From positions 95,802,416 through 95,866,415 of the forward strand of contig NC_134840.1 in NCBI RefSeq assembly GCF_965363235.1: a stretch of 64,000 nt of DNA, written 5' to 3'. The stretch comes from Mytilus galloprovincialis (lineage: Eukaryota; Mollusca; Bivalvia; Mytilida; Mytilidae). This document shows, one piece after another, positions 11,604 to 62,319 of this stretch. The translations under genes were made by a program, and so were the position numbers. The notes below the pieces were generated by a model that worked only from the letters and a program-made list of their open reading frames with translations, searched no databases and was not told where the DNA came from. Numbering within the stretch: the stretch's first letter is position 1; each line of letters opens with the position of its first letter.

Positions 11604-14600
11604 GTAAGTTAAACTATGCATTCTATGTATAAATAGAGACTGTCCAAGGAAAAGAGAAAATATTTAGTACTCATAATAAAATGAACACTTAGACATGTTA
11701 GAGCAAATCTGACATGGGGTAAAATGCTCATGAAGTCAAATTCTATTAACCCTGATCTTTTCAGATGAATCTAACAACCCTTTGTTGGGTTGCTGCAACT
11801 AAATTGGTAATTGTAAGGAAATTTTGCATTTGTTGGTTATTAATATTTTGAATATACATTTAGTATTTTAGATTTATATAAAGACTTGAAAGATAAACTG
11901 TAAACAGCAAAAATGATCTACTAACATGACAAATAATTTGTCAATTGACCCTTTATTAACGGAGTTATTGTCCTCTAACATATCTAAAGACAACTTGTTC
12001 ATCTAGTGCATTTCTAGTGTGCTTACTTTACAAAAAAATGGTATCCTTTGAAACAATTACTGAATCAATTTCAGCCAAACTTGGGCAAAATAACTTTCAG
12101 AGTACATGTATGTAGTATAAATTAAATTTTGTGTATTTAATTTCCATGTATGTCGAGAAACATAGCCACTATGGTTAAAATGGAACATACATGGCGTATG
12201 ACAAATGTAGGAGTAAAATGGAACATACATGACATATGACAAATGTAGGAGTAAAATGAAACATAAATGAAATATAAAATGGAACATACATGGCGTATGA
12301 CAAATGTAGGAGTAAAATGGAACATACATGACATATGACAAATGTAGGAGTAAAATGAAACATACATGAAATATAAAATGGAACATACATGACATATGAC
12401 AAATGTAGGAGTAAAATGAAACATACATGAAATATAAAATGGAACATACATAACATATGACAAATGTAGGAGTAAAATGGAACATACATGACATATGCAG
12501 GGGTTTATCTGGGTATTTTGGGAAAAAGGACCGTGGCCACTTTTGGGAATTTTTTTACCCGATTTATATAGAAATTGGGAAAATTACAAATAAACCAGAA
12601 GTCAGTTTTAGTATGTATCATACTATAATTCATTAGAAATTTTTTTTTTGTGAAAATAAAGAAAAACTACAATACATGATTCATTGTCATTTATAATTTT
12701 ATTTTTCTGTCCTTTTTGTTTTTAAATGTCTCAAGAAGACGATTTTTCAGATGACTGCTGGTGTTTATTGCTCATCTCATGTTTTTGTAATTGTCTTGTA
12801 GGATGATCCCCTAAAATTACCCCCTTACTACTAAAGTCAGTACTACCAAACGGAAATAACTCACAATATTTGCAGACGTATCCCTCTAAGGATTCATTAT
12901 AGTATAACCATTTATATGTCATTTCATACCTCCTTGCATCAAAAAGTCTTCTGTCTGATACATTATATACTTTTAATTTATCATTAAGAGCAGTTTTACT
13001 GTCAGTACTACCCAACACAGTCATGACTTTACTACTACATGTACTAGGTTTCATTGGTATTTCATTATTTGGTTTACAGATTTCAGTTTGAGTTTGGAAT
13101 TTACAAGCTTGGTCCTCAGGTTGTATCAGTAGCGAATCGGTATTGGTTTGACTTTGATCATCATTTGAAATTAAATTGTCATTGGAAGAAACATCAACAA
13201 CATCGGTAACATTTTCAATTGATTCAGTCTCAGATAACGCTGCCTCTGACTCATTACATGCAGTTGCGGCATCGTCAATTACAGCTCTTGGTTTGAAAAA
13301 AGATAAGATTTTATGGGATTTGTTGCCGTCGGTGTTTTTCAATTTCTTCACATAGTATTTACTATTGTGAGACGACATGTTTACAAAAGGAAAGAAGTTA
13401 AAAAATATTTTATTTTATTATCAAAATGCGGGCTTCTTAAAGCGCACATGTGATAAGGATTTCCCGCTTTTTTTACCTTTAAAGTGAAGAGCGTAGTTTT
13501 GGAAAGGTTAAATTGCGGATTTCAATTCAGACTTTTTGACTACGTTTGGGAATTTTTACACCTGAAATTGGGAAAAATATAGGGGTTTTGCCATTGGGAA
13601 TGGGTCCGAATACCGGACTCAGTGGAATGCTAGAAAAATCCATGATATGACAAATGTAGGAGTAAAATGGAACATACATGACATATGACAAATGTAGGAG
13701 TAAAATGGAACATACATGAAATATGACAAATGAAGGAGTAAAATGGAACATACATGAAATATAAAATAGAACATACATGACATAATTTTTTATGACAAAT
13801 GTAGGAGTAAAATGGAACATACATGACATATGACAAATGTAGGAAAAAAATGGAACATACATGACATATGACAAATGTAGGAGTGAAATGGAACATATGT
13901 GACATGACAAATGAAGGAGTAAAATGGAACATACATGACATATGACAAATGTAGGAGTAAAATGGAACTGACATGAAATATGACAAATGTAGGAGTAAAA
14001 TGGAACATACATGACATATGACAAATGTAGGATTTAAATGGAACATACATGAAATATAAAATGGAACATACATGACATATGACAAATGTAGGTGTAGAAT
14101 GGAACATACATGACGTATGACAAATGTATGAGTAAAATGGAACATACATGACATATGACAAATGTAGGAAAAAAATGGAACATACATCACATATGACAAA
14201 TGTAGGAGTAAAATGGAACATACGTGACATGTCAAATGAAGGAGTAAAATGGAACATATGTGAAATATAAAATAGAATATACATGACATAATTTTTTATG
14301 ACAAATGTAGGAGTAAAATGGAGCATACATGACATATGACAAATGTAGGAGTAAAATGGAACATACATGACATATGACAAATGTGGGAAAAAAATGGAAC
14401 ATACATGACATGACAAATGAAGGAGTAAAATGGAACATACGTGACATATGACAAATGTAGGAGTAAAATGGAACATACATGACATATGACAAATGTAGGA
14501 GTAAAATGGAACATACGTGACATGACAAATGAAGGAGTAAAATGGAACATACGTGACATATGACAAATGTAGTAGTAAAATAGAACATACATGACATATG

Positions 14601-17600
14601 ACAAATGTAGGAGTAAAATGGAACATATATGAAATATGACAAATTTAGGAGTAAAATAGAACATACATGACATATGACAAATGTAGGAGTAAAATGGAAC
14701 ATACATGACATATGACAAATATAGGAGTAGAATGGAACATACATGACGTATGACAAATGTAGGAGTAAAATGGAACATACGTGACATATGACTAATGTAG
14801 GAGTAAAATAGAACATACATGAAATATAAAATGAAACATACATGATATATGACAATTGTAGGAGTAAAATAGAACATACATGACATATGACAAATGTAGG
14901 AGTTAAATGGAACATACATGAAATATAAAATAGAACATACATGACATATGACAAATGTAGGAAAAAAATGGAACATACATCACATATGACAAATGTAGGA
15001 GTAAAATGGAACATACGTGACATGACAAATGAAGGAGTAAAATGGAACATACGTGAAATATAAAATAGAATATACATGACATAATTTTTTATGACAAATG
15101 TAGGAGTAAAATGGAGCATACATGACATATGACAAATGTAGGAGTAAAATGGAACATACATGACATATGACAAATGTGGGAAAAAAATGGAACATACATG
15201 ACATGACAAATGAAGGAGTAAAATGGAACTTACGTGACATATGACAAATGTAGGAGTAAAATGGAACATACATGACATATGACAAATGTAGGAGTAAAAT
15301 GGAACATACGTGACATGACAAATGAAGGAGTAAAATGGAACATACGTGACATATGACAAATGTAGGAGTAAAATAGAACATACATGACATATGACAAATG
15401 TAGGAGTAAAATGGAACATATATGAAATATGACAAATTTAGGAGTAAAATAGAACATACATGACATATGACAAATGTAGGAGTAAAATGGAACATACATG
15501 ACATATGACAAATATAGGAGTAGAATGGAACATACATGACGTATGACAAATGTAGGAGTAAAATGGAACATACGTGACATATGACTAATGTAGGAGTAAA
15601 ATAGAACATACATGAAATATAAAATGAAACTTACATGACATATGACAATTGTAGGAGTAAAATAGAACATACATGACATATGACAAATGTAGGAGTTAAA
15701 TGGAACATACATGAAATATAAAATAGAACATACATGACATATGACAAATGTAGGAGTTAAATGGAAAATACATGAAATATAAAATAGAACATACATGACA
15801 TATGACAAATGTAGGAGTTAAATGGAACATACATGAAATATAAAATGGAACATACATGACATATGACAAATGTAGGAGTAGAATGGAACATACATGACGT
15901 ATGACAAATGTATGAGTAAAATGGAACATACATGACATATGACAAATGTAGGAGTAAAATAGAACATACATGAAATATGAAAAATGAAGGAGTAAAATGA
16001 CCTTTTGTTTTTAAAAAATTGTGTTTTAAAGAAAATAAGACATTTATAAACAACATGAACAAAGATCATTTAAATGGCATTTTTAAGCCACTTATTAATC
16101 ATGGTAATACAAATGTATATATTGAAAAGAAAAAATAATCATTGATGACATATTAAAGTATTTTATGAGCTTTTTGTTTGTGATCTTTACTCTTTGTAGC
16201 TTGCTGTTCAGCCAATGCTCCGTGTTGAAGGTTTATCTTTGACCTATAATGGTCTGGTTTTGCAAATTGTGACATGGATGGAGAGTTGTCTCATTGACAC
16301 ACATATCACATCTTCTTGTATCTATATATAGTCATGATAGTTTGTAAATATTGATGTTATATTTGTTGATTATTACAGGATAGGAATGGTACAGACTGGT
16401 TGGAATATAAAAGCACAGATCAGCTGATTGTTGGTGCTCCTCAAAAGGAGGATGTAGGCAGCTCTAGTATATTTATCACAGTTAGATCTAAACATTGTAC
16501 ATCAACTGTTCCCTGGAGAGTGGCAGTAACATTTGTTATAGAATTTCCCCAACAGATTTCCACAGCAGGTATATATAGATTTGTTACATGTTTGTCAGTC
16601 ATCTGTGATAAAGCTTTCCTACATGTATGTCAGTCTTATGTGATAAAGCTTTCCTACATGTATGTCAGTCTTATGTGATAAAGCTTTCCTACATGTATGT
16701 CAGTCCTGGGTGATAAAGCTTCCCTACATGTATGTCAGTCTTATGTGATAAAGCTTCCCTACATGTATGTCAGTCCTGGGTTATAAAGCTTCCCTACATG
16801 TATGTCAGTCCTCTGTGATAAAGCTTCCCTACATGTATGTCAGTCCTCTGATAAAGCATCCCTACATGTATGTCAGTCCTCTGTGATAAAGCATCCCTAC
16901 ATGTATGTCACTCCTGTGATAAACCTTCCCTACATGTATGTCAGTCCTCTGTGATAAAGCATCCCTACATGTATGTCAGTCCTGGGTGATAAAGCTTCCC
17001 TACATGTATGTCAGTCCTGGGTGATAAAGCTTCCCTACATGTATGTCAGTCCTGGGTGTTAAAGCTTCCCTACATGTATGTCAGTCCTTTGTGATAAAGC
17101 TTCCCTTCATGTATGTCAGTCCTGGGTGATAAAGCTTCCCTACATGTAAGTCAGTCCTGGGTGATAAAGCTTCCCTACATATATGTCAATCATCATTGGT
17201 GATAAAGCTTCCCTACGTGTATGTCAGTTCTCTGTGATTAAACTTCCCTACATGTATGTCAGTCCTGGGTGATAAAGCTTCCCTACATATATGTATGTCA
17301 GTCCTGGGTGATTAAGCTTCTCTACATGCATGTCAGTCCTGGGTGATAAATTTCCCTACATGTATGTCAGTCCTGGGTGATTAAGCTTCTCTAGATGTAT
17401 GTCAGTCCTTGGTGATAAAGTTTCCCTAAATGTATGTCAGTCCTGGGTGATACAGCTTCCCTATATATATGTCAGTCCTGGGTGATTAAACTTCCCTACA
17501 TGTATGTCAGTCCTCTAAGATTAAGCTTAGATCTAAACATTGTACATCAACTGTTCCCTGGAGAGTGGCAGTAACATTTGTTATAGAATTTCCCCAACAC

Positions 17601-31555: not shown

Positions 31556-31646
31556 TCAATCTATTGATTTTGTTATAATAATAACTGTTAGAACAGCAAT
31601 GATGGCTACAAACACTGGAACTATTAATGTCTTCACATTCTGGAAT
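31556..31646 (-). CDS. Nuclease-like gene, exon 2 (membrane anchor)
   Basis: 91 nt with a long T-tract acceptor. It encodes FQNVKTLIVPVFVAIIAVLT and then VIIITKSID and stop. A single hydrophobic span within nine residues of the C-terminus suggests post-translational membrane insertion. Confidence 0.6.
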
Positions 31647-34248
31647 CTAAAAAAAAAATGGTATTGATAAAAAAAATATATGCAAATTAATACAACTGAA
31701 CAATTGTGTAAATATATCTGACACGCTGAAATTTGTGGAACAAGTTATTGCATATATATACTAACAGAAATAAAAAAAAAAACAACATATTTTACATATA
31801 TCGAGATTTGTATATTACAAACCCTTGGGTTTATCGACTTTTATAAAAAGAAACTTGTGACACGTGCGGCTAGATGTCAGTAACCTTTTGGTACACCTTT
31901 TGTCATCGGGCTCTGGTTTTATTGTCTTTCGGTGAACTGCAGTACTCATTTAATAACATGTACGTATGTTAATTGCTGTGGAACATTGACTAGAAATGGA
32001 AGACTACAACTTGTTATTAAACAAACTTAATTGCTGCAGCTACAGTTTTGTGGCACGTTTAACAACTATGTACAACTGTGGAAATGTGAGTCGATTATAA
32101 CATTCACGAAAACGGTTAACCAGAGCACATAATCAAGTGTAATTTAAAAGTCTCAAGATTAATAACGAACAATTGAATTTTTTAGACTACATTTATTTTA
32201 CAATATTTGAATATAATGTTTATATCTGCAATTTTGGCAAATGTGATGCCGACGTAAAAGAAACCAGTGTTATGTGCAGTTCATGTCTGCAGTGGCAGCT
32301 AAATGTTGAACGTTACTTTTTATTTCAAAACTAATAAGATATACACAGACAAAATTGGCTCAACTGAATTTCACATGAATCTCACATGAAATTCACATGA
32401 AAAATTTTACGCGAGATTCACCTCAAACAAGCTTATACATGAAACTCGCGTACAAATTTTCGTGTGACTATCATGTGAATTGAGATTCACATGAATCTGA
32501 TGTGAAATTTTTCATATGAATTTCACGTGAAATTTACAAAAAAGAATTTGATATTTTTCATGATATTAATTAAATTTGGAAATTTAGATGTTATTTGAAT
32601 TACTCTATTTCAAAAATTCATGTGAATTTCAAATGAAAAACATTTACGTGGTTTGCATGTGAAATTCGCACGAGTTTCACAGGAGATTCACGTGAAACTC
32701 ACAAAAACCGATTTTACGTGAGTTTCACGTATAAGCTCGTTTGAGGAGAAATTCACGTGTATTTCACGTGCTATTGATGTGAGTGAAATTTGCCTGTGTA
32801 CATGTATTTATAATAAGTATAAGTTTTAGTTATTATGTCGATTGTTTATAAGGTTTTGTACACATTGCTTAATGGGTATCTTTTTTTTTAAACATACTTC
32901 TTATTAAACCAAAAATAACGATTTTAATACTCATGCTTTGTACAAAATGTTTTTTAAAAGACTTTATTATAGTAAAGAATAAAATAGCCTATAAGAGTTT
33001 TTTTGCTGCAGCCGGCAAAATAGCTACTGCCTTTCCCTTATAATAAATAATAAATACATTGTAAAAAGGAGATTGTGTGCTGCTGCCCGCAGACGCTGAA
33101 CGATTATAGAAAAAATCTTACCAGAAAAAAGAATATTCTATCTTATTTGTGAGCACATACTTGCATTGTTATATTGGTGCTTCACCATTGGTTCCAGTAT
33201 ACACTAAAACATATCTTCATATGTATCAACGACATATAATATAAACATACCCAACATGGACAGACGTTAACTCATCGATAATTTCGTCGTCATCTGTAAA
33301 CTCCTCGCCATTTTCATTGTCATCAGTGTAGATCTTCACACGTTTTGTTGTTATCTTCCTGTAAACAGTTTTGACTTCGTCGGGATATGTCGTCTTTTTG
33401 TAAACAGTTTTGACCTCGTCGGGAGCTGTCGTCTTTTTGTAAACAGTTTTGACTTCATCGGGAGCTGTCGTCTCTTTTTTGGGACCCGTCTTACGAGGCT
33501 GCGTTTGATTCCTCGTAGCTTTGTTTCTTGTGAGCTTCTTTAAAATATCATTTACTAAATGTTCCTGTTTATGAATATCTGATTTATATAACACTGCCTC
33601 TGCCGTTTTGCTATAGAAAACGAGAACCATCAGCTGTAATGTTAATGGATCCAAATCAAGAGCGAGGGAGTAGATGAGAACTTGTATTACAGCATGAACT
33701 AAATAATCCTCTTCGTATTTCTCTTTCTTCATTGTTGAGTATTTGATATCACAGACCACACTCGGCGATGATGTTACAAATACATCAGCTTCTAACTTCT
33801 TTGTTAAGAACGGGAAAATGTCGTAGTTTTTAATATGATGTCCGAATGAGTAAGTTGTGGTTTTACTTTTCCGGCCGTATAACTTTTTTACATTTGTGTT
33901 AAGAATTTCCCATGCAGCGTCTCCAGCTTTTTCCATAAAGAGGCTGTATTGTTTCTTCTCTTTCGGTTTGATATTTGGGTATAACTCTTTGAACTTTTTC
34001 CAAGGGTCATCCTTCTGTGACGTATGTCCAGCAGCCTGTTGTACTGCGTATTCAAATAAATCTCCATGAATAAATTTCTGAATCGGCGATTGGCTACTTG
34101 GAATAGGAATACTTGCAATGTCGGCAGTCAATACGCTTCTAGAAATTTCCTGAAAATGGCGATAGTGTTTAAGGTTTCCGTTTACATCATCTTTTAGCTG
34201 TTTAATGAACTGATGAACGGAAAATAGGGGTTCTCCTGAGTTTGTCAT
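31556..34248 (-). CDS. Tail-anchored PD-(D/E)XK nuclease-like protein (2 exons, 362 aa predicted)
   Basis: Exon 1 is 34248-33251, donor GG|GTATGT; exon 2 is 31646-31556, acceptor ttttttag. The split codon GG|A joins in frame and exon 2 ends in TGA. The N-terminal domain shows the four RecB/Cas4-type PD-(D/E)XK landmarks in order: Glu66 in GDLFE, Asp155 in EADVF, Asp167-x-Lys169 in VVCDIKYS, and Gln189-xxx-Tyr193 in QVLIYSLAL. Three 13-residue repeats TTAPDEVKTVYKK follow (260-298), then an acidic stretch (309-326). Exon 2 adds a 19-residue hydrophobic segment (~339-357) and a 5-residue tail, the layout of a tail-anchored membrane protein facing the cytosol. There is no signal peptide. I do not recognise the family. 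It could be a nuclease, a catalytically dead relative, or a domesticated mobile-element gene. Exon 1 is very probably coding; the exon 2 join rests on phase, splice sites and the membrane segment. Confidence 0.7.
31647..32341 (-). other. Intron of the nuclease-like gene, 3' part
   Basis: AT-rich, nothing recognised. Confidence 0.3.
32342..32800. mobile_element. TA-flanked MITE dense in TTCACGTGAA-type palindromes (in the intron)
   Basis: The ends tacacagacaaaattggctc and, inverse, tacacaggcaaatttcactc match imperfectly and are bounded by TA. The interior holds more than a dozen phrases such as gaatttcacatgaat, atttcacgtgaaattta and ctcacatgaaattcacatg, all variants of a 10-bp palindrome with a CACGTG/CACATG core. 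Non-coding, in the intron of the nuclease-like gene. Confidence 0.65.
32801..33250 (-). other. Intron of the nuclease-like gene, 5' part
   Basis: AT-rich, nothing recognised beyond the donor at 33250-33245. Confidence 0.3.
33251..34248 (-). CDS. Nuclease-like gene, exon 1
   Basis: 998 nt, residues 1-332 plus two bases of codon 333. The frame stays open to 33226, but the good donor gtatgt at 33250 and the exon 2 join make the shorter version more likely. Codons 260-298 are a 39-bp DNA repeat in three copies (33361-33480 region). The ATG at 34248 is the first in the frame. Confidence 0.75.
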
Positions 34249-34616: not shown

Positions 34617-35776
34617 GTAGGACTGTTAAGTGCGATGGTCACGCTAAAGTGCGATGGTCTACGCTAAAGTGCGATGGTCTACGCTAAAGTGCGATGGTCT
34701 ACGCTAAAGTACGATGGTGTATCACGCTTTTGTATCACGCTATTTAAGTGCGATGGTTGTTTGTTTGCTAAAGTACGATGGAATATCACGCTTAAGTGCG
34801 ATGGACCATGCAGAGGGGTAATGTTAAATGGTTTAATTAAAACGTTAATTTCAATAAACAGTCTCTTTTGCAAAAGCTTGTATGCTAAGGTTTAAAAGCA
34901 TATGTGATAGGCTTTACAATTACCGGTAGGCTAAAGTGATTGTTTCTTAATTTAAAAGTAAGACCACGTGATATTTGCTAAAATGGTCATTTATGTGTGA
35001 CAAAAATCTATATATCCTGTATATGATTTTTTATTTAAATTCGGGCGTATCAAATAAGTATTTGGATAATTGGCGTAACTTGCCGTTCACACAGTATAAA
35101 TATATATCACTAATGTCAACATCTTCCTTACAGCCGTCATTGTAAATTACAAATACACAAATTGTTCATCGTGTAACTTTTATTGGTTTAGTTCTTAATT
35201 TTTAACGAGAAAGAAATGCAATGTTCTCCGACCTTTTTCCTTTTTTGCAGCAAGTACAAATACATCGTAATACAATGTACAAACTAATAGCTGACAATTC
35301 ATATTATACGCATAAAAATATGGACCTTTATTTACCGACTTTTAAAATCGACAATATGTTAACTGGGACCACAAAGTAAACTGCAACATAAACAGTGATT
35401 TCAATGTATCCGTTAGCTTCTAATAGAAACAAGATAAAGGATACTTATGCGTATACTTTTGTATCTGTATAGTAAAATGGTCGACTGCAGGATACAAGTC
35501 CTTCTTCCAGCACTCGAGAAAAGAAAAGAAAAACGTATTTGCCTAAGCCAACAAAGCACGATTAGGTTTAAATAAAGTAAGTCATTACAATTTGGTTAAA
35601 AGTTGTTAATCAAACATTTCACATTTATCTTTCGGCATGTTCATTTCTTTGTTTGTATAAAAGACTGTTCGCCTCATAATTCATAGTACGTTTATTACGT
35701 CTATACTTTCGCGGACCGTCGCACTTTAGCGAAGACCATCGCACTTTAGCGTCCCCATCGCACTTTAGAGTCCTAC
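34617..35776. mobile_element. Foldback-type element B: inverted ends made of CTAAAGTGCGATGGTCTACG units
   Basis: The left end starts gtaggactgttaagtgcgat and continues with ~20-bp units ctaaagtgcgatggtctacg to about 34820. The right end (about 35700-35776) carries the inverse tcgcactttagcgaagacca and finishes agtcctac. The interior is AT-rich and non-coding. It lies directly upstream of the nuclease-like gene. No target-site duplication could be fixed. Confidence 0.8.
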
Positions 35777-43971: not shown

Positions 43972-44125
43972 CATAGGCGGATCCAGGGTGGGGGGCGCCC
44001 CCCCCCTTTTGTGGGAAAAATTTGGTTGATTATATAGGGAATCATTGAAGCATGACTGGAACGGGCCCCCCTTAGGTCAGTCAGCGCCCCCCCCCCCCTT
44101 ATGAAAAGTTCTGGATCCGACACTG
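43972..44125. mobile_element. hAT-like MITE (CATAGGCGGATCCAG), 5-bp TSD AGTCA
   Basis: Left end cataggcggatccag, inverse right end cagtgtcggatccag. agtca flanks both sides (43967-43971, 44126-44130). Interior has long C runs. Third copy of the family seen at 37021 and 39596. Confidence 0.85.
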
Positions 44126-44130
44126 AGTCA

Positions 44131-45242
44131 TGCAAATTATTGACCCTGTGCTCAGATGTTCAACTTCAATAAATTTATGTTGCGCGACTCTACTGTTTTT
44201 GTTTAAACCTATATCAACTTGTAATGATAACCTTCTATTTACCTACTGCCTTTTGACAACACATTAATTACACCATGACCCTTTAACACGTATATGCTAG
44301 CTGCATGTTGATGTTCTTTCAATGGTTGAAGTCGATAAAAAATACAAGCACTCATGGAGGCTGCCATTTTGGATGTTGTGGGTCAAAATATTATTTCGGA
44401 TACTATCGTTACTTTTCATAGAGTCTACGAAAAATCCAAAATGTTTCGAGTCTCTGACAGAAATCTGACATAAGAATTTTTACCATTGCGAAAACCCAGA
44501 CGTTTGATTTGTAAAATTCAAGCGTCTGGGTGATCGAGACTTCCCCTTTTCTAGTGCCATTAAAAAAATTCCCGACCTTTATCCCGGACGGCCTCTATTA
44601 AAAAGATACCTATTGTATTTCAAATCAGTGTGTTTTCGCCATGAACATGAATGAAGTATTTGTCCCTGGACATTAAGCAACCACTTATCAATTAACCATT
44701 ATATGATAATTATATGATATAGACAGTAATAAGTGGCTGAAAGTATGTATATAGCATGTCAAATAAGGAGAAAATGTACATGCGTTTGCTTTGTGTCTTG
44801 TACAGTATTATATCAATAATGAATAATGATTGTTCTGTATTTAATCATGATCCAGATTTTATATCAATTAGACTTTGACTTTGTTGATTTTTGTAATTGT
44901 AAAACTTTCCTACACTTTAAATCGATATGATTGTTTGTCATTTATTTCTTCGTTTACATGTGATACATATACATGCAAGTAAAATGTATTTAATGGCACA
45001 TGCACCTGTACGGAAATCTATACTAGCGCCACACAATTTTTTTTCTATATTTCTTCCAATATGTTTGCGTTATAACATACTCATAGTAGATCATAGTAGT
45101 GGAGTGACCAAGCTAACATTTTTTCATCTTTAATGGACCACCATACCTGCAGGTTAAAATATGACATTTTGGAAAGAGAAATGTTTATTCTTTAATTTTT
45201 GCCTGGTCGTAGAATTGAAACATGGTGCAATTTTTTGCAGAG
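44131..45242. other. No gene seen
   Basis: AT-rich. The phrase gcgtctgggtgatcgagact (44525) marks a dispersed repeat shared, inverted, with 36385. Confidence 0.3.
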
Positions 45243-45248
45243 GTTAGG

Positions 45249-46985
45249 AGTAGTAGGGACGGTTCAGTTTGATGCACCCCCAAAACACAGGGCGCTAGGG
45301 CGCTGACGTCATATGCGTATGCCCCGCCCCCAATATTATATATGGGCATATACTAGCCCTAATGACGTCAGCGGAAGTAAGGAAGATGAGTCACGACGGA
45401 TGGACGCAGGACCATATATGGACAGCAGGTCACGTGATCGTATCGAGGAACGTTAACTCTGGTACAGAATAAAGGGAAGCAACTCTGTATATATATATAT
45501 CTCGTGGAGTGACAATTCAACGAGGCAAGGTCACGTGATCGTATCGAGGAACTCTGATACAAAAAAGGGAAGCAACTCTTCATGATGTGAACATCAATCA
45601 CCGATTAATCGTATCGTGTTCGGGGCAAATAGAAAAAATACCAACGCAGATGTCAGTTTCATATATATTTATTACATTCATTCGTACAATGCAAGCAGTT
45701 TGTCGTCGTTACTCATCAAGTCTCTAGACGAAAAATCTTTCACAATGTCTTCCATGCTAATGTTTCTATATCTCATCTTCACGAAATGTACACAATAGAG
45801 TCCGCACGTATCGGATGATCCCGGTTGCACTTGAGTCGTACTGAATCTGTATTGAGGTCCATTGGCGATGAGCACGTTCCTGAAGCGACGAAGGTAATAC
45901 TCCGGAGAACGTCCGAACGAATCGAAAAATTCGACGGGTCCCTCTCGCGGGAAGTGGAACGCCACCCAGTGAATGCCCTTGCCGTCGCAGTCGTCCGTGT
46001 TGACGACGAAACTGCGGGGCCTGTTCGAGACTTCATCCGGCAGTTCATCGGCACAACACACGGTCGCCGGCAGGTCTTCGAGATAACACTCCAGTTCGTA
46101 TCCGTAGGTTCCCTCCACGCCGTCGTCTTCCGTTCTGCATCGTTTGACGGATGGTTCTTCGCCACAGTCCCTCTCTTGATGGATCTCGAGTCCCCGGGCG
46201 TGCGCAAATACCAGTCCGCATGCGCGGCAAGCCATCAGGTCCGATTCGCTTCCGACGTCTTCTTCTCCGAATTCCATGGTGTCCGATTCGCTTCCGGTGA
46301 AATCGACGTCTTCGTCCTCGGTTTCGGCGTCGTCCTCGCCTCCGCCCAAGACGTCGCTACGTAATCTCAAGTGTTCGGGTGTAGCGGCCTTCAGATCCAC
46401 CTGAAGGTATCCGAAGGGTCTCCTCGTGGCCTCTCGGAACGTTTGCATCAAGAGGTGTCTCTGACTCGGATACATCTGTCTACCTAGCGTGGCGACGGGC
46501 TGGCGATCGACTGGATTGTCGAAGAGGACCAGGTAGTGACAGTTTCTCCTCTGAGTCGGATCCTTCCCGAAATACAGGTTCTGATTCACAGCTACCACCG
46601 ACAGGTTACGATGATGCGATCCTTCCGTGAACAAGTCGTTGATGCGACGGTCTTTAGCCGAGGTCGACATCAGGTCGTCCAGCACGAGTAAGTTTCTGGT
46701 CCGTGCATCGAAGAAGTGATCGGCTTCCAACTCGGTCGGGATACCGCCAACGAATTCCACGGTGGGCACCACCGTCTTTCGAATCTCGTCGTAGAGGGGT
46801 TGCCATCGTCGGTACAGCCAGACGATCCTCTCCGGTACCGGGTTGCACGTGGATCTTCGCAATGCTTTCTTCACGAAAAACGTCTTGCCGCAGGAGGTCG
46901 GACCGGAGACGATCATGGTGAACGGGTGTTGAAAACGAAAACTTTCTTGCGTCGCATTTTGCGGTGGCGGCGGCGGCGGCGGCGA
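45249..46985 (-). repeat. Left inverted arm of the Polinton-type element
   Basis: Near-identical inverse of 47573-49309. Includes the terminal ~430 bp non-coding part (gcgctgacgtcatatgcgta, a ta run, duplicated aggtcacgtgatcgtatcga) and most of the ATPase-protease gene. Confidence 0.95.
45678..46916 (-). CDS. Polinton-type packaging ATPase/cysteine protease fusion, left-arm copy (412 aa)
   Basis: Begins MIVSGPTSCGKTFFVK, a Walker A motif; LLVLDDLMS is the Walker B-like strand and VVAVNQNLYF follows, as in the FtsK/HerA-type ATPases that package Polinton and related viral genomes. After an acidic linker and a CRACGLVFAHARGLEIHQER zinc-finger-like segment, the C-terminal part carries the adenain-type protease set: IHWVAFHF (His), EFFDSFG (Asp), DTCGLYCVHF (Cys). 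The two activities are fused. This copy starts inside the gene relative to the right-arm copy because the arm ends there. Fossil element. Confidence 0.85.
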   Translation of the reverse strand: MIVSGPTSCGKTFFVKKALRRSTCNPVPERIVWLYRRWQPLYDEIRKTVVPTVEFVGGIPTELEADHFFDARTRNLLVLDDLMSTSAKDRRINDLFTEGSHHRNLSVVAVNQNLYFGKDPTQRRNCHYLVLFDNPVDRQPVATLGRQMYPSQRHLLMQTFREATRRPFGYLQVDLKAATPEHLRLRSDVLGGGEDDAETEDEDVDFTGSESDTMEFGEEDVGSESDLMACRACGLVFAHARGLEIHQERDCGEEPSVKRCRTEDDGVEGTYGYELECYLEDLPATVCCADELPDEVSNRPRSFVVNTDDCDGKGIHWVAFHFPREGPVEFFDSFGRSPEYYLRRFRNVLIANGPQYRFSTTQVQPGSSDTCGLYCVHFVKMRYRNISMEDIVKDFSSRDLMSNDDKLLALYE

Positions 46986-47025
46986 TGGTTATAAGAGGAA
47001 GAGGATCGAATGCTTAATCAAAACC

Positions 47026-47448
47026 ATGGACGAGTTTTACTTATTCGTCAATAGTGGAGACTCGCTCCAACTTTTCCCCCAGAATAGGGGAGGACAGTTC
47101 AGAATACGTTTACCTAGATCACACTTAATGAAAGGAACGTGGGAGTGTGTTCTGTTGGAGATGACCTTTGTACCGGCTTTTGAAACGTCTACGCAGAGAA
47201 TGTACGTGTGTTGCGATCTGGTAAGGGATGAATCTTACGTCAGAGACACTTACCTGCCACTGCTTCAATCCGTAGCCATCAGAAAAGAAGAGACCACGGA
47301 GATAATTTTCGAGAGACCTCTCTACCTCGCGTCGAGGGGAGGCGAGATGGAAATATTAGAAATCACCTTGAGAGACGATCGACTTCGCGTGTGCCGTTGC
47401 AAAGATGATCACGTGTTCTGCTTGCTTCATTTCCGACAAAAGTTATAA
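47026..47448 (+). CDS. Polinton-type minor capsid (penton-like) protein, 140 aa
   Basis: Unique to the centre of the element. Starts MDEFYLFVNSGDSLQLFPQN and continues QFRIRLPRSHLMKGTWECVL and LEMTFVP. This opening, with a Phe/Pro-rich strand and a W-x-V-x-L-x-E strand, is the pattern I associate with the single jelly-roll minor capsid proteins of Polintons. It ends just inside the start of the following ATPase gene. Assignment is by pattern only and the protein is short, so moderate confidence. Fossil element. Confidence 0.6.
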   Translation: MDEFYLFVNSGDSLQLFPQNRGGQFRIRLPRSHLMKGTWECVLLEMTFVPAFETSTQRMYVCCDLVRDESYVRDTYLPLLQSVAIRKEETTEIIFERPLYLASRGGEMEILEITLRDDRLRVCRCKDDHVFCLLHFRQKL

Positions 47449-48880
47449 GAGGGAAAGTTCCACCCTCGAAGTGAGGATGGAGTGTCCTAGCTGTCAAAGA
47501 ATGTTTTCGAGAAGAGACGTCATGTTGAGGCATCATCGAAATAAGCATGGTACTGGCGTACCACCACCGCCACCGCCGCCGCCGCCACCGCCACCGCAAA
47601 ATGCGACGCAAGAAAGTTTTCGTTTTCAACACCCGTTCACCATGATCGTCTCCGGTCCGACCTCCTGCGGCAAGACGTTTTTCGTGAAGGAAGCATTGCG
47701 AAGATCCACGTGCAACCCGGTACCGGAGAGGATCGTCTGGCTGTACCGACGATGGCAACCCCTCTACGACGAGATTCGAAAGATGGTGGTGCCCACCGTG
47801 GAATTCGTTCGCGGTATCCCGACCGAGTTGGAAGCCGATCACTTCTTCGATGCACGGACCAGAAACTTACTCGTGCTGGACGACCTGATGTCGACCTCGG
47901 CTAAAGACCGTCGCATCAACGACTTGTTCACGGAAGGATCGCATCATCGTAACCTGTCGGTGGTAGCTGTGAATCAGAACCTGTATTTCGGGAAGGATCC
48001 GACTCAGAGGAGAAACTATCACTACCTGGTCCTCTTCGACAATCCAGTCGATCGCCAGCCCGTCGCCACGCTAGGTAGACAGATGTATCCGAGTCAGAGA
48101 CACCTCTTGATGCAAACGTTCCGAGAGGCCACGAGGAGACCCTTCGGATACCTTCAGGTGGATCTGAAGGCCGCTACACCCGAACACTTGAGATTACGTA
48201 GCGACGTCTTGGGCGGAGGCGAGGACGACGCCGAAGCCGAGGACGAAGACGTCGATTTCACCGGAAGCGAATCGGACACCATGGAATTCGGAGAAGAAGA
48301 CGTCGGAAGCGAATCGGACCTGATGGCTTGCCGCGCATGCGGACTGGTATTTGCGCACGCCCGGGGACTCGAGATCCATCAAGAGAGGGACTGTGGCGAA
48401 GAACCATCCGCCAAACGATGCAGAACGGAAGACGACGGCGTGGAGGGAACCTACGGATACGAACTGGAGTGTTATCTCGAAGACCTGCCGGCGACCGTGT
48501 GTTGTGCCGATGAACTGCCGGATGAAGTCTCGAACAGGCCCCGCAGTTTCGTCGTCAACACGGACGACTGCGACGGCAAGGGCATTCACTGGGTGGCGTT
48601 CCACTTCCCGCGAGAGGGACCCGTCGAATTTTTCGATTCGTTCGGACGTTCTCCGGAGTATTACCTTCGTCGCTTCAGGAACGTGCTCATCGCCAATGGA
48701 CCTCAATACAGATTCAGTACGACTCAAGTGCAACCGGGATCATCCGATACGTGCGGACTCTATTGTGTACATTTCGTGAAGATGAGATATAGAAACATTA
48801 GCATGGAAGACATTGTGAAAGATTTTTCGTCTAGAGACTTGATGAGTAACGACGACAAACTGCTTGCATTGTACGAATGA
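47405..48880 (+). CDS. Polinton-type zinc finger/packaging ATPase/cysteine protease, right-arm copy (up to 491 aa)
   Basis: The frame opens at 47405, but the ATG at 47477 (MECPSCQRMFSRRD) is the likelier start: it begins a C2H2 finger (CPSC, then HHRNKH) and avoids most of the overlap with the preceding gene. A run of about 12 prolines follows, then the ATPase (Walker A GPTSCGKT, LLVLDDLM), an acidic linker, a second Cys/His-rich motif (CRACGLVF) and the adenain-like protease (IHWVAFHF, FDSFG, DTCGLYCVHF). Such proteins package DNA and mature capsids in Polintons and related viruses. It ends with VKDFSSRDLMSNDDKLLALY and a stop at 48880. Fossil element. Confidence 0.85.
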   Translation: MITCSACFISDKSYKRESSTLEVRMECPSCQRMFSRRDVMLRHHRNKHGTGVPPPPPPPPPPPPQNATQESFRFQHPFTMIVSGPTSCGKTFFVKEALRRSTCNPVPERIVWLYRRWQPLYDEIRKMVVPTVEFVRGIPTELEADHFFDARTRNLLVLDDLMSTSAKDRRINDLFTEGSHHRNLSVVAVNQNLYFGKDPTQRRNYHYLVLFDNPVDRQPVATLGRQMYPSQRHLLMQTFREATRRPFGYLQVDLKAATPEHLRLRSDVLGGGEDDAEAEDEDVDFTGSESDTMEFGEEDVGSESDLMACRACGLVFAHARGLEIHQERDCGEEPSAKRCRTEDDGVEGTYGYELECYLEDLPATVCCADELPDEVSNRPRSFVVNTDDCDGKGIHWVAFHFPREGPVEFFDSFGRSPEYYLRRFRNVLIANGPQYRFSTTQVQPGSSDTCGLYCVHFVKMRYRNISMEDIVKDFSSRDLMSNDDKLLALYE

Positions 48881-58000: not shown

Positions 58001-59297
58001 GTGAAAAGTTCACAATTAATTGGAAAGCTGAAATCATCTGTTTTGTCGTAAAGTTTTGTTTTCAACCGACCCTCATTGTTAATTTGTAGATGTAAGTCAA
58101 GATATGAGGCAAACTTAACGATATCTGTTGTGTCCTTTATCGTAATTTCGATCGATTGGATAGATGCGTTCAACATAGTCACCAAAATATTTCCGATAAT
58201 TATAGTACTCTTTTTTGTGGTTAATAAGCTTCCAATGAAATTCAAGATAACATGTTCATGGGCAATATGGTCTGAGGGAACAAGTTTTTTAAAACTATAA
58301 ATAACTATAAATTTCCGTCATTTCACTTTTGCTTTCTTCATATTCTTCGCATCTACTTTTCTCAATTTTCTTTGAAAATTTTACCACTTTATGATCTTCC
58401 TCTATACATTTATTTTTGTTAAGGAATAAAGAGAAGATATCAATCGGACAAACAATTCGAAAGATACCATGAGCAGAAGACGAACTATTAAACAACAAGC
58501 ACACAAGAATATCAAACATTTGAGCAAAAACAAAAACGGATGGTAAAATGAGGTGCTCCGAAAGGGTCACCAGTTCCAATGTCATTATACGTAGTTATCA
58601 ATCAGTTACTTACCTTCACTGTTTTTATCGTTTGTACAGTCGACCTGACTAGGATTGTGTGAACAGTTGGTTCTATCTAATTTTATATCACATTCCGTCT
58701 TGTTTAACATTGAAGTACAATTAGTGTTGTTTGTTTGTAGAGTAGAACAGTTTATATCGTCAGAACTTCCGGTACAATTACTAGAGTTGAATCCTCCTCG
58801 ATTATAATCTGTAATATTGTGAATATCGGTGTAGTTATTATGCATGCATTCTAGATTTGTGTCGGTCGAGTTGTTGGTACAGTTAGTAGGGCTTGTTTTA
58901 TTCACTCCATCTAGAGTTGTACCATTATTATCGTTAGTGTAGTTACTGGAGCTTGTTTTATTCACTCCATTTAGAGTTGTACCGTTATTATCGTTAGTGT
59001 AGTTACTCTGATTTATTTCTGGATCACAAACGATGCTAGAAAAGTTGTTAGTGCAATTTCTGGTGTTTATTCCCTCTTCAAAGTCTGTACTGTTATAATA
59101 ATCAGTAGCGTTATTGTACTTTATTTCATCTTGTTCACAGTCTGTCACATTTGAATCGCCATTGCAGTCAGATTGAGTTTTCTTATGTTTACAGTTTGCA
59201 CCTGTATAGTCTGCAGTGCAATTACAACTATAGCTGTAAAACACTGACATGCACTTTCCGTTGTTTTCACAAGGTGTACTCGAACACTGATCAAAAT
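54899..59297 (-). CDS. EGF domain, N-glycosylated stalk and membrane anchor: 3' exons of a cell-surface gene (partial)
   Basis: Exon 59297-58614 (acceptor cttgtttcag, donor GAAG|GTAAGT) starts with an EGF-like domain: FDQCSSTPCENNGKCMSVFY, then six cysteines ending at GANCKHK. About 190 residues rich in Asn, Thr, Ser and Asp follow, with more than 20 N-x-S/T sequons and repeats such as SNYTNDNNGTTLDGVNKTS. It joins in phase (GA... = Glu) to exon 55065-54899, which encodes NKTTYS, a membrane span (LMIVILLSSIVSMSVIITLL) and a 25-residue tail ending RYRVEPT and stop TAA. AATAAA lies at 54820-54815. The first exon needs an upstream exon ending in phase 1. The convertase exons just upstream on the same strand are candidates, through an alternative donor. 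Otherwise this is a separate gene. Confidence 0.65.
55066..56340 (-). repeat. Intron with dispersed repeat fragments
   Basis: 55290-55350 (inverse of catctggtgcaagaaaattg, gtaccgttaattttatta) is an inverted fragment of the hammerhead element at 56953-57347. 55640-55745 (ggttggtgtttaaggtcata, aagccggagtgcaaggggcc) recalls another common mussel repeat. No coding exon recognised. Confidence 0.5.
56341..56952. repeat. CCGA/TCGG-rich repeat region
   Basis: Dense in short tccgacagtga, gtcggaac, atccgatac phrases; 57348-57560 has the same character. The hammerhead-flanked unit 56953-57347 seems inserted into it. Overlapping open frames on both strands show no domain. Confidence 0.5.
56953..57347 (+). 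mobile_element. Retrozyme-like unit: ~345 bp between direct repeats carrying hammerhead sequence
   Basis: gaatgcgcatctggtg, then aagaaaattggtaccgttaa, ttttattac (56951-56991) recur as gaaatgcgcatctcgtgcaa, gaaaattggtacctttaatt (57292-57341). The second copy has a complete hammerhead; the first keeps only its 3' part. Between them is a non-coding 345-bp stretch including the hairpin-forming ggtgggctattagtccccga. This is the plan of a retrozyme or of a Penelope-like terminal repeat. Confidence 0.65.
57266..57309 (+). ncRNA. Type I hammerhead ribozyme motif, second subfamily
   Basis: Stem I GCATCA (57266-57271) pairs with TCGTGC (57304-57309) with one mismatch. Core CTGAAGA (57272-57278) is allowed because position 7 is variable. 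Stem II GACA/TGTC is at 57279-57282 and 57288-57291, GAA at 57292-57294. Stem III is the self-complementary ATGCGCAT (57295-57302), and the cleavage base is C57303. The loopless stem III implies activity as a dimer. Confidence 0.75.
57603..57950 (-). repeat. Inverse copy of the hammerhead-element tail
   Basis: On the minus strand ttgagtgtgaattcac, aagacgtgtcacggta, cgatttatgagttttgaaca, gcggcattctactgttgcct match 51400-51655 and 61690-61950. Follows the reverse transcriptase fragment 57955-58245 on the same strand, as expected for its 3' tail. Confidence 0.65.
57955..58245 (-). mobile_element. Penelope-like reverse transcriptase C-terminal fragment
   Basis: DTTDIVKFASYLDLHLQINN, GRLKTKLYDKTDDFSFPI: the same RT region as DHCPFLDLDIYI to DDFSFPIVNYPF in the 28805-30105 remnant, but a different subfamily. 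Fossil, truncated, broken at its end. Confidence 0.65.
58614..59297 (-). CDS. EGF-like and N-glycosylated stalk exon
   Basis: 684 nt. EGF cysteines in C-x5-C-x5-C pattern, then CxC and C. The stalk repeats SNYTNDNNGTTL(N/D)GVNKTS twice in tandem, a 25-residue unit that is also a 75-bp DNA repeat (58880-59005). Regular Cys within the sequon-rich part (NCT, DCE, ECM) suggests either disulfides or a compact glycosylated module. Confidence 0.75.
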
Positions 59298-60195
59298 CTG
59301 AAACAAGCTTAGGTATCATATTATCATTATCATTAGTGATGCAATGTATTAACATACACACGACACACTACATTATGTGACGTATGTAAAATACTAGTAA
59401 TTTTTCTCTAAAATCTAGCTTTTGTATGGCTCTCATAAGCTTTCGAATCGTACTCAACCTTACATATAAACACAATCAATTATCAGCTAATTACAGTTTG
59501 TAGTATTTTAGACCTGATAACGAGCTGACTGCATGTAAACTAACTTTTATGGCTTCTATCAGCAAATACACAATTTAAAGAAATGTTGTACAAATTGATC
59601 ATAGTATGAAAGTCCTCAATTTTAATAAAGTAAATTGACTTTAAATTGACTACGAGCTACATAATCAAACTTCACCAACACAGTTAGACATGAATGCAAA
59701 TGAACTAATGTATCTTGAATCTTTTTAGTTGGGTTGCTGTCTTTGTTCATGTATACCCATCCTCTAATGTTTCATATTTAGCAGGTAGTGATCTTTTAAA
59801 ATCATACATATATTTAAAAACAAAATGGGGAACAAAATCAAATAGACACAAGCATTTCCGTTCTCAATTTTATGTATTTTGTAAATATCTTGGCTTACAA
59901 ATATCCGGTTTTGACTGTTTCTGAGGACAGTAAATCAAGAAAAGCAATTCGGACACATACACTTACAGACTCGGGCGCAGGTAATTTATGTTATTTTAGT
60001 TACATAAACAAAACTGTAGAACGTGTAGTCAATCGAAACAGATATTCATTCGGTGCGTTCTATCATAAGATGAATTTAACGATAAACATGGTAGTCTTTT
60101 CTCATCATGTACATCCAGTTCATACCAAACTTAAAATGTTGTATTTTTGTAAACTTAAGACCCAACAGTGAAAAAAGATGTACAGATAATATTTT
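59298..60195 (-). other. No exon recognised
   Basis: AT-rich. The + strand open frames at 59715-60171 include FRSQFYVFCKYLGLQISGFD-like strings without a known domain and overlap each other. Confidence 0.3.
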
Positions 60196-60408
60196 TTTAT
60201 ATAGATTAGACCGTTGGTTTTCCCGTTTGAATGGTTTTACACTAGTAATTTTGGGACCCTTTATAGCTTGTTGTTCGGTGTGAGCCAAAGCTCCGTGTTG
60301 AAGGCCGTACATTGACCTATAATGGTTTACCTTGTTTTTAAATTGTTATTTGGATAGAGAGTTGTCTCATTGGCACTCACACCACATCTTCCTATATCTA
60401 TCAGATTC
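60196..60408 (-). mobile_element. SINE-like repeat, inverse copy of 30112-30320
   Basis: ccgttggttttcccgtttga, gtgtgagccaaagctccgtg, ttgaaggccgtacattgacc, gagttgtctcattggcactc. Over 200 bp it is about 90% similar to the inverse of 30112-30320 by eye. Confidence 0.75.
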
Positions 60409-61344
60409 TTTCAAAGTTCAAGACAATTGCACAGTATTTTATAATAGCAAGAGTTAAATTCATGCTCGTGTTTCTCTTTTTAGCATTTCGAATACAATGT
60501 TCGTAACTAGCGTAATATGTATAGATTAATACATTGCATTTTTCATATGCAACTAACTTAAAGCACCAAATATAGAATTCACACCCTTTTTACGCGTTTG
60601 TCATACTGTAAAAATTATATATAAGGATATGATAAATTCTAATATACCTACGTGCTAAAGGATTTGTACGAGTTCCATATAATGTAAGAAACCAGGAGTC
60701 CAATGTAACTTAAATGGAAAGTTACAATATTTTTTTTCAATGTTAAATGTTCTGAACATGTTTTATTACATCATCAACAAATATTTAGTATACATGAGCA
60801 CAAATGTTCAAAGTATAGTGGAAATGTCACTCCTTTGTTTTGACATCATTGAATGTTAATTATAACAAGATACCACGAGTAACATAAGTGATGCCACTTG
60901 AGAAGTAGGATGACCTGTTTACCTTCCGGAGCACCTGTAAGTTCATCTGTACCGGAACATCTCAGTTCAGCTCCGATAATGCGTGTTTCTCTATCTCTTA
61001 TTTTTTGTTATGGATTTTATCGACTGGTAATTTATCTTTTGCCTTCTTTCTTTTGATCAGGGTTGTCTGTCTCCACTCAACATGATATTTTCTTACTTTG
61101 TTTTGTAAGTACTTGAATTTTAAAAAACAATTGTCTCTAAACGTAATTTTCCCTCTGAAATGGGTATTTATACCGGCATTGGTAACAGGTATTGATTTAA
61201 GCTATAATGGTTCCAATGTTTTTATGCATAACCTCAAACTACAGTTGTTGTCTGAATATAAGATATCATCAAACACTGAATTTCATTTCGTTAAATAATT
61301 TTCAGTAACTATTCTTTATTAAATTGTAATATACAAATGCCAAT
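60409..61344. other. No gene seen
   Basis: AT-rich. A 66-codon frame at 61098 has no domain. Confidence 0.3.
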
Positions 61345-61953
61345 TTAATAGATTTAATCTGGGCGTCACACGTAGGTCTTGTGTGGACAAAATACACTTC
61401 TGGCGTATTAAAATTTTGAACTTGTTGCCTTTTGTTGGCTGTTGTTCGTGTGATTCTTTGTCAATTGTGTTCTCCAATTTATTTATATTGTAGTCCTGTG
61501 TTGTCATTTTGATGTTATATTTCACATGGCCATACAAGTGCGAGGTTTGGCATGCCACAAAACCAGGTTCAACCCACCATTTTTTCCTTTAAAAATGCCC
61601 TGTACCAAGTCAGGAATATGGCCATTGTTATATTATAGTTCGTTTCTGTGTGTATTACATTATAACGTTGTGTCGTTTGTTTTCTTTTATTTTTGAGTGT
61701 AAATTCACATTGCGATAAGACGTGTCACGGTACTTGTCTATCCCAAATTCATGTATTTGGTTTTGATGTTATATTTATATGTTATATTTGTTATTCTCGT
61801 GGGATTTTGTCTATGTGTGTTACATTTTAGTGTTATGTCGTTGTTCTCCTCTTATATTTAATGCGTTTCCCTCGGTTTTAGTTTGTTACCCCGATTTTGT
61901 TTTTGTCCATAGATTTATGAGTTTTGAACAGCGGTATACTACTGTTGCCTTTA
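61345..61953 (+). mobile_element. Hammerhead-headed short retroelement, second + strand copy
   Basis: Decayed hammerhead at 61363-61407 (gcgtcacacgtaggtctt ... tggcgta), then the same tail as 51090-51659: gcgaggtttggcatgccaca, aaaccaggttcaacccacca, tgaacagcggtatactactg, ttgcctttatt. It ends about 15 bp from the stop codon of the convertase exon on the opposite strand. Confidence 0.7.
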
Positions 61954-61967
61954 TTTAATAGTCGTTA

Positions 61968-62319
61968 CTATTTATGTGCCTTTTCAAAGGTCAAATAATT
62001 TATTATACCCCTTGTAAATCCTTTATGTGATCGGACCTGCAATGTCCAATTACCAATAGGATTTTCTCCCCAATAATGCACCGACATAAAAGTCCATGTA
62101 AGATTTCCTGCTTCTTGGTACTTAACAGCATCTTTCCCACGATTAGTTAAAAGATGACTTTCAGTACCACTGGGCGACACCAGGAAAATCTCAGTCAAGC
62201 CTCGGTATCGATCATATGAAAATGAGACCGTAGCTGTCACATGTTCTATGTACGACAATGAACACATTGTGGATTTTATAAGTGTTTTAGCAACTGACGT
62301 TTCATTTGCCGTCGTCATA
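61968..62319 (-). CDS. Convertase exon: P domain
   Basis: 352 nt, acceptor tttatag, stop TAG. Whole P domain by length and motifs. The exon ends 15 bp from the hammerhead-headed retroelement (61345-61953), so the original 3' end of the gene may have been altered by that insertion. Confidence 0.8.

Follow-up and report, generated by a model that had tools for sequence, protein, structure and literature searches.

Does a mussel gene that carries the landmarks of a RecB-type nuclease in one exon and a hydrophobic span in the next encode a membrane-bound nuclease, and does it fall into any family already held in the libraries? The gene lies on the minus strand of a 64,000-nucleotide (nt) stretch of Mytilus galloprovincialis DNA (contig NC_134840.1; C3:95802416-95866415 in our genome numbering), called the window below, for which a first-pass annotation had proposed a tail-anchored PD-(D/E)XK protein of a possibly new family. 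We find a genuine RecB-type nuclease-like family outside the libraries scanned, one member of which, the product of the window gene, is probably tail-anchored. Computed results back the coding exon, the family, the conserved motifs, the fold signal and a tail that is better than expected from shuffled sequence.

Gene model and protein layout

The gene is read as follows, with positions counted from the first letter of the window and residues in amino acids (aa):

33251..34248, minus strand: exon 1, starting with the ATG at 34248 (332 codons plus 2 nt; 998 nt)
31647..33250, minus strand: proposed phase-2 GT-AG intron of 1604 nt
31556..31646, minus strand: exon 2, 91 nt including the stop, with a hydrophobic span at about aa 339-358 and the tail KSID
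33355..33471, minus strand: three in-frame 39-nt repeats, TT(A/Y)PDEVKTVY(K/R)K, at residues 260-298 (13 aa each)

The coordinates, frame and GT-AG junction of the first-pass annotation were recovered, with a donor GG/GTATGT after 33251, an acceptor of a T-run and AG/A before 31646, and a joint codon that encodes Gly333 and keeps the frame. The spliced product is 362 aa long. Read without splicing, the frame from the same ATG has 340 codons and its own stop (33226-33228), 8 codons past residue 332; splicing swaps these last 8 codons for 30 residues that hold the hydrophobic span, followed by a stop. The nuclease-like domain (about aa 1-240) lies within exon 1 and is followed by a basic repeat region (aa 241-300) and by a linker at about aa 301-332. 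Both the 13-residue repeat and the acidic nature of this linker had been described correctly. In a search of the whole genome (1.385 Gb), exon 1 has a single 100% DNA match, and exon 2 likewise has a single match and no second copy. About 400-580 nt upstream of the ATG, at 34641-34827, stand 20-nt tandem units, ACGCTAAAGTGCGATGGTCT, with degenerate neighbours.

Paralogs and coding constraint

Five loci of the family were found in the whole-genome search, namely the window gene and four others that lie within 250 kb of one another at C6:20.51-20.76 Mb. Two of these four are intact. L003 (C6:20756986) is an open frame of 258 aa with ~36% identity to the window gene, and L004 (C6:20509842-20510552) is an intact 237-aa open frame. 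The other two, L005 (C6:20680628) and L006 (C6:20565834), are of the L004 type and are broken by stops, L006 also carrying frame changes. A reverse-transcriptase-like frame, recognised by eye, is present about 10 kb from L004 (C6:20498494-20499999).

Over 254 aligned codons, the window gene and L003 differ by 0.575, 0.390 and 0.634 at codon positions 1, 2 and 3, which is a pattern of coding constraint; synonymous change between the two is saturated. Between L004 and L005, nonsynonymous divergence (dN) is 0.058 and synonymous divergence (dS) 0.302, giving a dN/dS of ~0.19 over 235 codons in a comparison in which L005 is itself a broken copy. L005 and L006 have a dS of 0.03 over 113 codons, and in both of them a stop immediately precedes the same block; the shared place of the stop and the little divergence suggest duplication of a copy that was already broken. 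Exon 1 belongs to a real, coding, intact host gene. We rejected the idea that L004 is a clearly dead paralog, as it keeps the His, the Asp and an ExK in addition to the low L004/L005 ratio; this ratio hints at some function that is kept under constraint although motif IV is lost.

Active-site motifs

Four motifs in the predicted nuclease domain can be aligned with those of RecB-type enzymes:

34051..34071, minus strand: motif Ia-like IHGDLFE (aa 60-66), with His61 as the proposed metal ligand
33784..33786, minus strand: Asp155, motif II, invariant in 4/4 aligned copies
33742..33750, minus strand: Asp167-Ile-Lys169, motif III (D/E)xK, with Lys169 in 4/4 copies and Glu at residue 167 in L004 and L005
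33670..33684, minus strand: Gln189-Val-Leu-Ile-Tyr193, motif IV QhxxY, also in L003, with Lys and His instead in L004 and L005

Across the four copies, 37 of the 183 four-letter columns are invariant, and just 8 of these hold D, E, K, R, H, N or Q, His61, Asp155 and Lys169 being among the eight. The paralog L003 keeps the His, the Asp, the DxK, the Q and the Y at the positions aligned with the window gene. For comparison, an alignment of 13 RecE rows was made from Escherichia coli RecE and 12 of at least 30 RecE-like matches listed, leaving out 80 RecE loci at 98-100% identity to the query. Of its rows, 12/13 have His at the motif-Ia position (L117 has Lys), the motif I Glu, the motif II Asp and the DxK are each found in 13/13, and motif IV has its Q in 12/13 and its Y in 13/13. 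Five residues past the motif-Ia column there is Glu in 8/13 rows, Gly in 4/13 and Lys in 1/13. According to excerpts of the MGME1 literature (PMC6237815), the metal ligands of that enzyme are Asp238, Asp251 and the motif Ia residue His180, and Lys253 orients the water; its motifs Ia, I, II, III and IV, with motif IV as QhXXY, are those of a RecB-type subgroup that comprises RecB, AddA and MGME1.

All the RecB landmarks named in the first-pass annotation (E66, D155, D167, K169, Q189 and Y193) are indeed present, but the role assigned to Glu66 is better filled by His61. The RecB-type motif Ia histidine is found as H61 in 4/4 aligned copies. Because His61 is invariant and fits motif Ia of RecE and MGME1, while Glu66 is replaced by Lys in L004, the first-helix metal ligand is most likely His61 rather than Glu66. 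Glu66 was also rejected as the motif-I residue, given the Lys in L004 and the presence of Glu in only 8 of the 13 RecE-family rows at the equivalent position.

How much the motifs can carry on their own was gauged with a loosely spaced pattern, E..D..[DE]xK..QxxxY, and 5000 shuffles per protein. It appeared by chance in 5.0% of the shuffles of the window protein and in 3.9% of those of the paralog. The motif alone was therefore rejected as proof, since 4-5% of shuffles match, and its weight comes from conservation and from the fold search. The best reading of the sequences is that the gene belongs to an uncharacterised RecB/RecE-type PD-(D/E)XK nuclease family.

One feature of the active site speaks against this reading, as no motif I Glu is conserved ahead of motif II in residues 130-154 of the four copies. 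The best candidate, column 143, is D in the window gene, E in L003 and A in each of the other two copies; the acidic residue is thus seen in exactly those two copies in which motif IV is preserved as well. A catalytically dead nuclease fold that serves at a membrane as a scaffold or to bind nucleic acids would agree with the missing Glu and with an L004 type that lacks the Q and Y of motif IV and still has a dN/dS of ~0.19 against L005. We consider this improbable for the window protein, which keeps the His, Asp, DxK, Q and Y together with L003 and is likely to be catalytically competent.

Fold predictions

AlphaFold2 models of the window protein and of the paralog L003 were built from four sequences and compared by Foldseek with the PDB (both models) and with the viral library BFVD (the L003 model only). 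The best 50 rows of each search were tallied, family membership being judged by the row title and general knowledge. The window model has a helix at 55-73, a strand with the DxK at 163-171, a helix with the Q at 175-196, strands at 204-212 and 217-223 and a helix at 229-241, and this order is repeated in the paralog model. From the DxK strand onward, the order of the elements is that of the PD-(D/E)XK superfamily; the earlier core strands are weak or missing.

Among the best 50 of the 186 PDB rows of the window model, 41 are PD-(D/E)XK nucleases, 2 are possible members and 7 are not. The 41 comprise HincII (20 rows), viral cap-snatching endonucleases (13), human MGME1 (5) and one row each for BstEII, RecE and a Cas4-family protein. 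With the paralog model, rows 1-3 are MGME1 and 8/50 best rows clearly belong to the superfamily (7 MGME1 and 1 RecE), with 3 more possible (AdnAB, CidA-CidB and 3l0a). In BFVD, 21/50 best rows of the paralog model are named PDDEXK, exonuclease 8, RecB, Cas4 or exonuclease; 21/50 are nameless and 8/50 bear other names.

Several of these results count against a PD-(D/E)XK fold. The models are poor, with a mean predicted local distance difference test score (pLDDT) of 47.6 for the window protein and 53.6 for the paralog. The strand expected to bear Asp155 is absent from the window model and only 3 residues long in the paralog's. A single enzyme, HincII, accounts for 20 rows of the window model, 39/50 best rows of the paralog model are neither clearly nor possibly PD-(D/E)XK, and all three Foldseek searches are without a match at E <= 0.001. 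Comparing profiles by hhalign with the 13 RecE-like proteins gave no significant result, the score of 15.9 standing next to a reversed control of 14.1 and being equalled or beaten by 27/200 column shuffles; in the best local alignment, the D and the DxK of RecE do stand opposite D155 and D167-x-K169.

The shuffle matches of 4-5%, the non-significant profile test, the low-confidence models and the fold lists without a significant match would all suit a protein that is not PD-(D/E)XK at all and whose landmarks are coincidental. Against such a coincidence, the models of two sequences that are only ~36% identical both rank a PD-(D/E)XK structure first, and viral exonucleases named as PD-(D/E)XK are among the matches of the paralog model, so we regard it as unlikely to a marked degree. 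The structure prediction that the first-pass annotation had called for returned a PD-(D/E)XK fold signal, but from poor models and with no significant fold match. We hold that the N-terminal ~240 residues very probably adopt the nuclease fold, a judgement kept lower than it might be since unrelated proteins make up most of the matches of the paralog model.

Searches for known families and relatives

In Pfam, PHROGs, NCBIfam and PADLOC, the window family did not reach a curated cut-off with any profile. The best library E-values were 0.0068 for DUF7198 with L004 (16.3 bits, cut-off 27) and 0.066 for DUF1266 with L003, and no exonuclease family is among the Pfam matches of the window protein up to E 10. 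A PDB sequence search gave no match for the window protein up to E 10, and the best profile match had an E of 0.12. The proposal of a possible new family is therefore borne out in the sense of a family outside the Pfam, NCBIfam, PHROGs and PADLOC libraries scanned. Among the literature matches listed, none names a PD-(D/E)XK family of bivalves or molluscs, which does not prove that the family is undescribed. PD-(D/E)XK families are usually missed by sequence searches, as the Background of PMC1913061 states.

Within the mussel genome, the PF12705 model matched a PDDEXK_1 protein at C5:55837160 (22.1 bits against a cut-off of 22, E 0.059) with a Cys-containing tail, which we take to be EXO5; in the same search this model did not pick up the window family. 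What emerges is a small, constrained animal family below every cut-off in the four libraries.

Relatives outside animals were sought in contig scans seeded by short peptide patterns, a design that misses distant relatives. Four such scans of IMG/VR (with P0001, a 3-row alignment, P0002 and P0003 as queries) gave no relative of the window family, and none was found in the pattern-seeded scans of prokaryote contigs. For phages (queries P0002 and P0004) and plasmids the sole match, at E 4, was a fragment of a phage DNA polymerase. A second phage exonuclease used as a profile seed found no relatives.

These scans bear on a viral origin of the family, namely a nuclease domesticated from a virus or mobile element (for example a herpesvirus- or phage-like exonuclease) and fixed in the host genome. 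In BFVD, the best rows of the paralog model include proteins of four fish or frog herpesviruses, led by Esocid herpesvirus 1 (E 0.02, prob 0.77), and excerpts of PMC13030845 describe ORF45 of SalHV-1 as a D-(D/E)-X-K nuclease conserved in sequenced alloherpesviruses, in support of this origin. Set against it are the negative results of the four pattern-seeded scans of IMG/VR and of those of phages and plasmids, and the lack, by eye, of any viral gene in 100 kb around the C6 copies, though the reverse-transcriptase-like frame lies near L004. We judge domestication to be a poor prospect next to a nuclease family of the host's own.

The probable membrane tail

At the sequence level, the lone C-terminal hydrophobic span of the first-pass annotation stands: at about residues 339-358 of 362, the Kyte-Doolittle (KD) hydropathy reaches a maximum of 3.1 over 19 residues, and elsewhere in the protein it is at most 1.52. 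The chance of such a tail was measured with a test devised after exon 2 had been seen, which asks for a phase-matched acceptor, a pyrimidine tract of at least 70% and a tail KD of at least 2.5. A tail KD of at least 2.5 arose in 4, 0 and 0 of 300 dinucleotide shuffles each of 2, 3 and 5 kb downstream, and one of at least 3.0 in 0/900. Among the 283 qualifying acceptors on both strands of the window, 2 yield a tail with a KD of at least 2.5, the window gene's included. Real sequence makes a milder control than the shuffles, such tails being commoner in it: among 82 half-overlapping 3-kb pieces, taken on both strands and with the window gene included, a tail of at least 2.0 is present in 11, one of at least 2.5 in 4 and one of at least 3.0 in 2.

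Two points argue against an anchor. The open frames of L003 and L004 contain no membrane span, in a check that was not extended to spliced tails and that for L003 was computed over residues 1-231 and done by eye for the last 27. In addition, the tail depends on splicing predicted from sequence, and the unspliced reading is a soluble 340-aa protein. If the donor is read through, the coding sequence stops within the first exon, and the membrane exon would be due to chance or belong to a minor splice form; such a soluble nuclease would be in line with the two paralogs, which are single open frames ending without a span, with the stop of the unspliced frame itself and with the 4/82 real pieces that carry a tail of at least 2.5. 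We nevertheless find this alternative rather doubtful, as a comparable tail came up so rarely in the shuffles and at only 1 other of the 283 acceptors. The anchor is probably used by the window gene, an estimate held down because real 3-kb pieces contain such tails oftener than shuffles do. The claim of a tail-anchored protein can thus be argued for the window gene from its sequence, but it does not extend to the family: on present evidence the anchor appears to be a feature of this gene alone, the frames of L003 and L004 being without a span.

Within the proposed intron, 32340-32800 is an inverted-repeat-rich element with 39 other copies at 86-90% identity (40 scored of 670 candidates), likely a miniature inverted-repeat transposable element (MITE). 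A high-copy element of this kind between the exons fits an intron and proves nothing.

Proposed function

The explanation that we favour overall, by a small measure, is an intact RecB/RecE-type nuclease that is tail-anchored, faces the cytosol and trims or degrades DNA. Its domain of ~240 residues would act as a metal-dependent nuclease with a site made of His61, Asp155, Asp167-x-Lys169 and Gln189hxxTyr193. The span of exon 2 would be inserted after translation, as in tail-anchored proteins, leaving the domain in the cytosol. From the splicing to the location, catalysis, substrate and role of the protein, these are steps that we infer.

Span hydrophobicity and tail charge are a rule of thumb for telling anchors of the endoplasmic reticulum (ER) from mitochondrial ones. 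The ER membrane would be the likelier site here because the span is very hydrophobic and the short tail has zero net charge. An MGME1-like nuclease of organelle DNA on the mitochondrial outer membrane could be proposed from the top rank of MGME1 in the PDB search with the paralog model. By eye, the N-terminus bears no arginine-rich presequence, and a tail anchor in the outer membrane would place the domain outside the organelle, which makes this proposal very improbable.

An ER-anchored nuclease of the favoured kind would trim or degrade DNA arriving at the cytosolic side of its membrane (RNA being the less likely substrate), and would work like TREX1 with an unrelated fold. By this analogy a TREX1-like role may be suggested, if only tentatively, and we think it unlikely. 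Two partial STING-domain matches above cut-off are present in the mussel genome; in one of them the frame read contains a stop. A fuller version, in which a RecE/MGME1-type animal family has one member that is an ER tail-anchored DNase and a convergent counterpart of vertebrate TREX1 upstream of cGAS-like/STING signalling, is speculative and a shade less probable again; here, cytosolic or viral DNA would be cleared or trimmed ahead of that signalling.

Other features of the window

Elsewhere in the window, 45678-48880 contains a long frame in two copies, inverted to each other, with a match to an adenovirus-type protease (Peptidase_C5) at the end of the frame, one copy also showing a weak Pox_A32 and a C2H2 finger, both below the Pfam cut-off. 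The G+C content rises to 0.46 in 44001-48000. The 45678-48880 region resembles what is presumably an integrated Maverick/adintovirus-like element. On the minus strand, 12057-16062 holds long open stretches of YVPFYSYICHMSCMFHF-like repeats that run in more than one frame simultaneously, shows a strong strand skew, and is probably a satellite rather than genes. A plus-strand frame at 25139-26062 matches dystroglycan (DAG1, E 1.7e-10) and, close to its end, shows a PPPY and a run of hydrophobic residues. Minus-strand frames in 58606-63840 match a proprotein convertase P-domain (E 9.5e-21); an EGF domain with an Asn/Thr-rich stretch is encoded there separately.

Comparison with known systems

Among known systems, RecE (exonuclease VIII of the E. 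coli Rac prophage, with its phage relatives) resembles the window protein in its first-helix His, D...D-x-K and QxxxY, in the same order, and its structure 3h4r is among the fold matches of both models. It differs in that the profile match to the window family is not significant and that a Glu before motif II, present in all 13 RecE rows, is not conserved in the window family. To our knowledge, RecE has no membrane tail. The PDDEXK_1 protein at C5:55837160 shares the PD-(D/E)XK superfamily, but it reaches the PF12705 cut-off and ends in a Cys-containing tail.

MGME1 is the top fold match of the paralog model and has the same RecB-type motif set, including the Ia His and QhXXY, as far as the excerpts of PMC6237815 describe it. 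The window protein, in contrast, has no PDB sequence match, has no apparent mitochondrial targeting sequence (the N-terminus being judged by eye) and carries a predicted C-terminal tail anchor.

TREX1 is a DEDDh exonuclease of a different fold, and the motif set of the window protein is PD-(D/E)XK-like, not DEDDh. The likeness lies in how the two would work and in their layout, as a DNase domain followed by a C-terminal anchor is also predicted for the window protein. For TREX1, the excerpts of PMC11904002 describe an N-terminal DNase domain that faces the cytosol and a single C-terminal ER anchor. In vertebrates, an enzyme of this layout removes stray DNA from inside the cell. Should the anchored mussel protein prove active as a DNase, the problem that TREX1 solves would have a second, independent answer.

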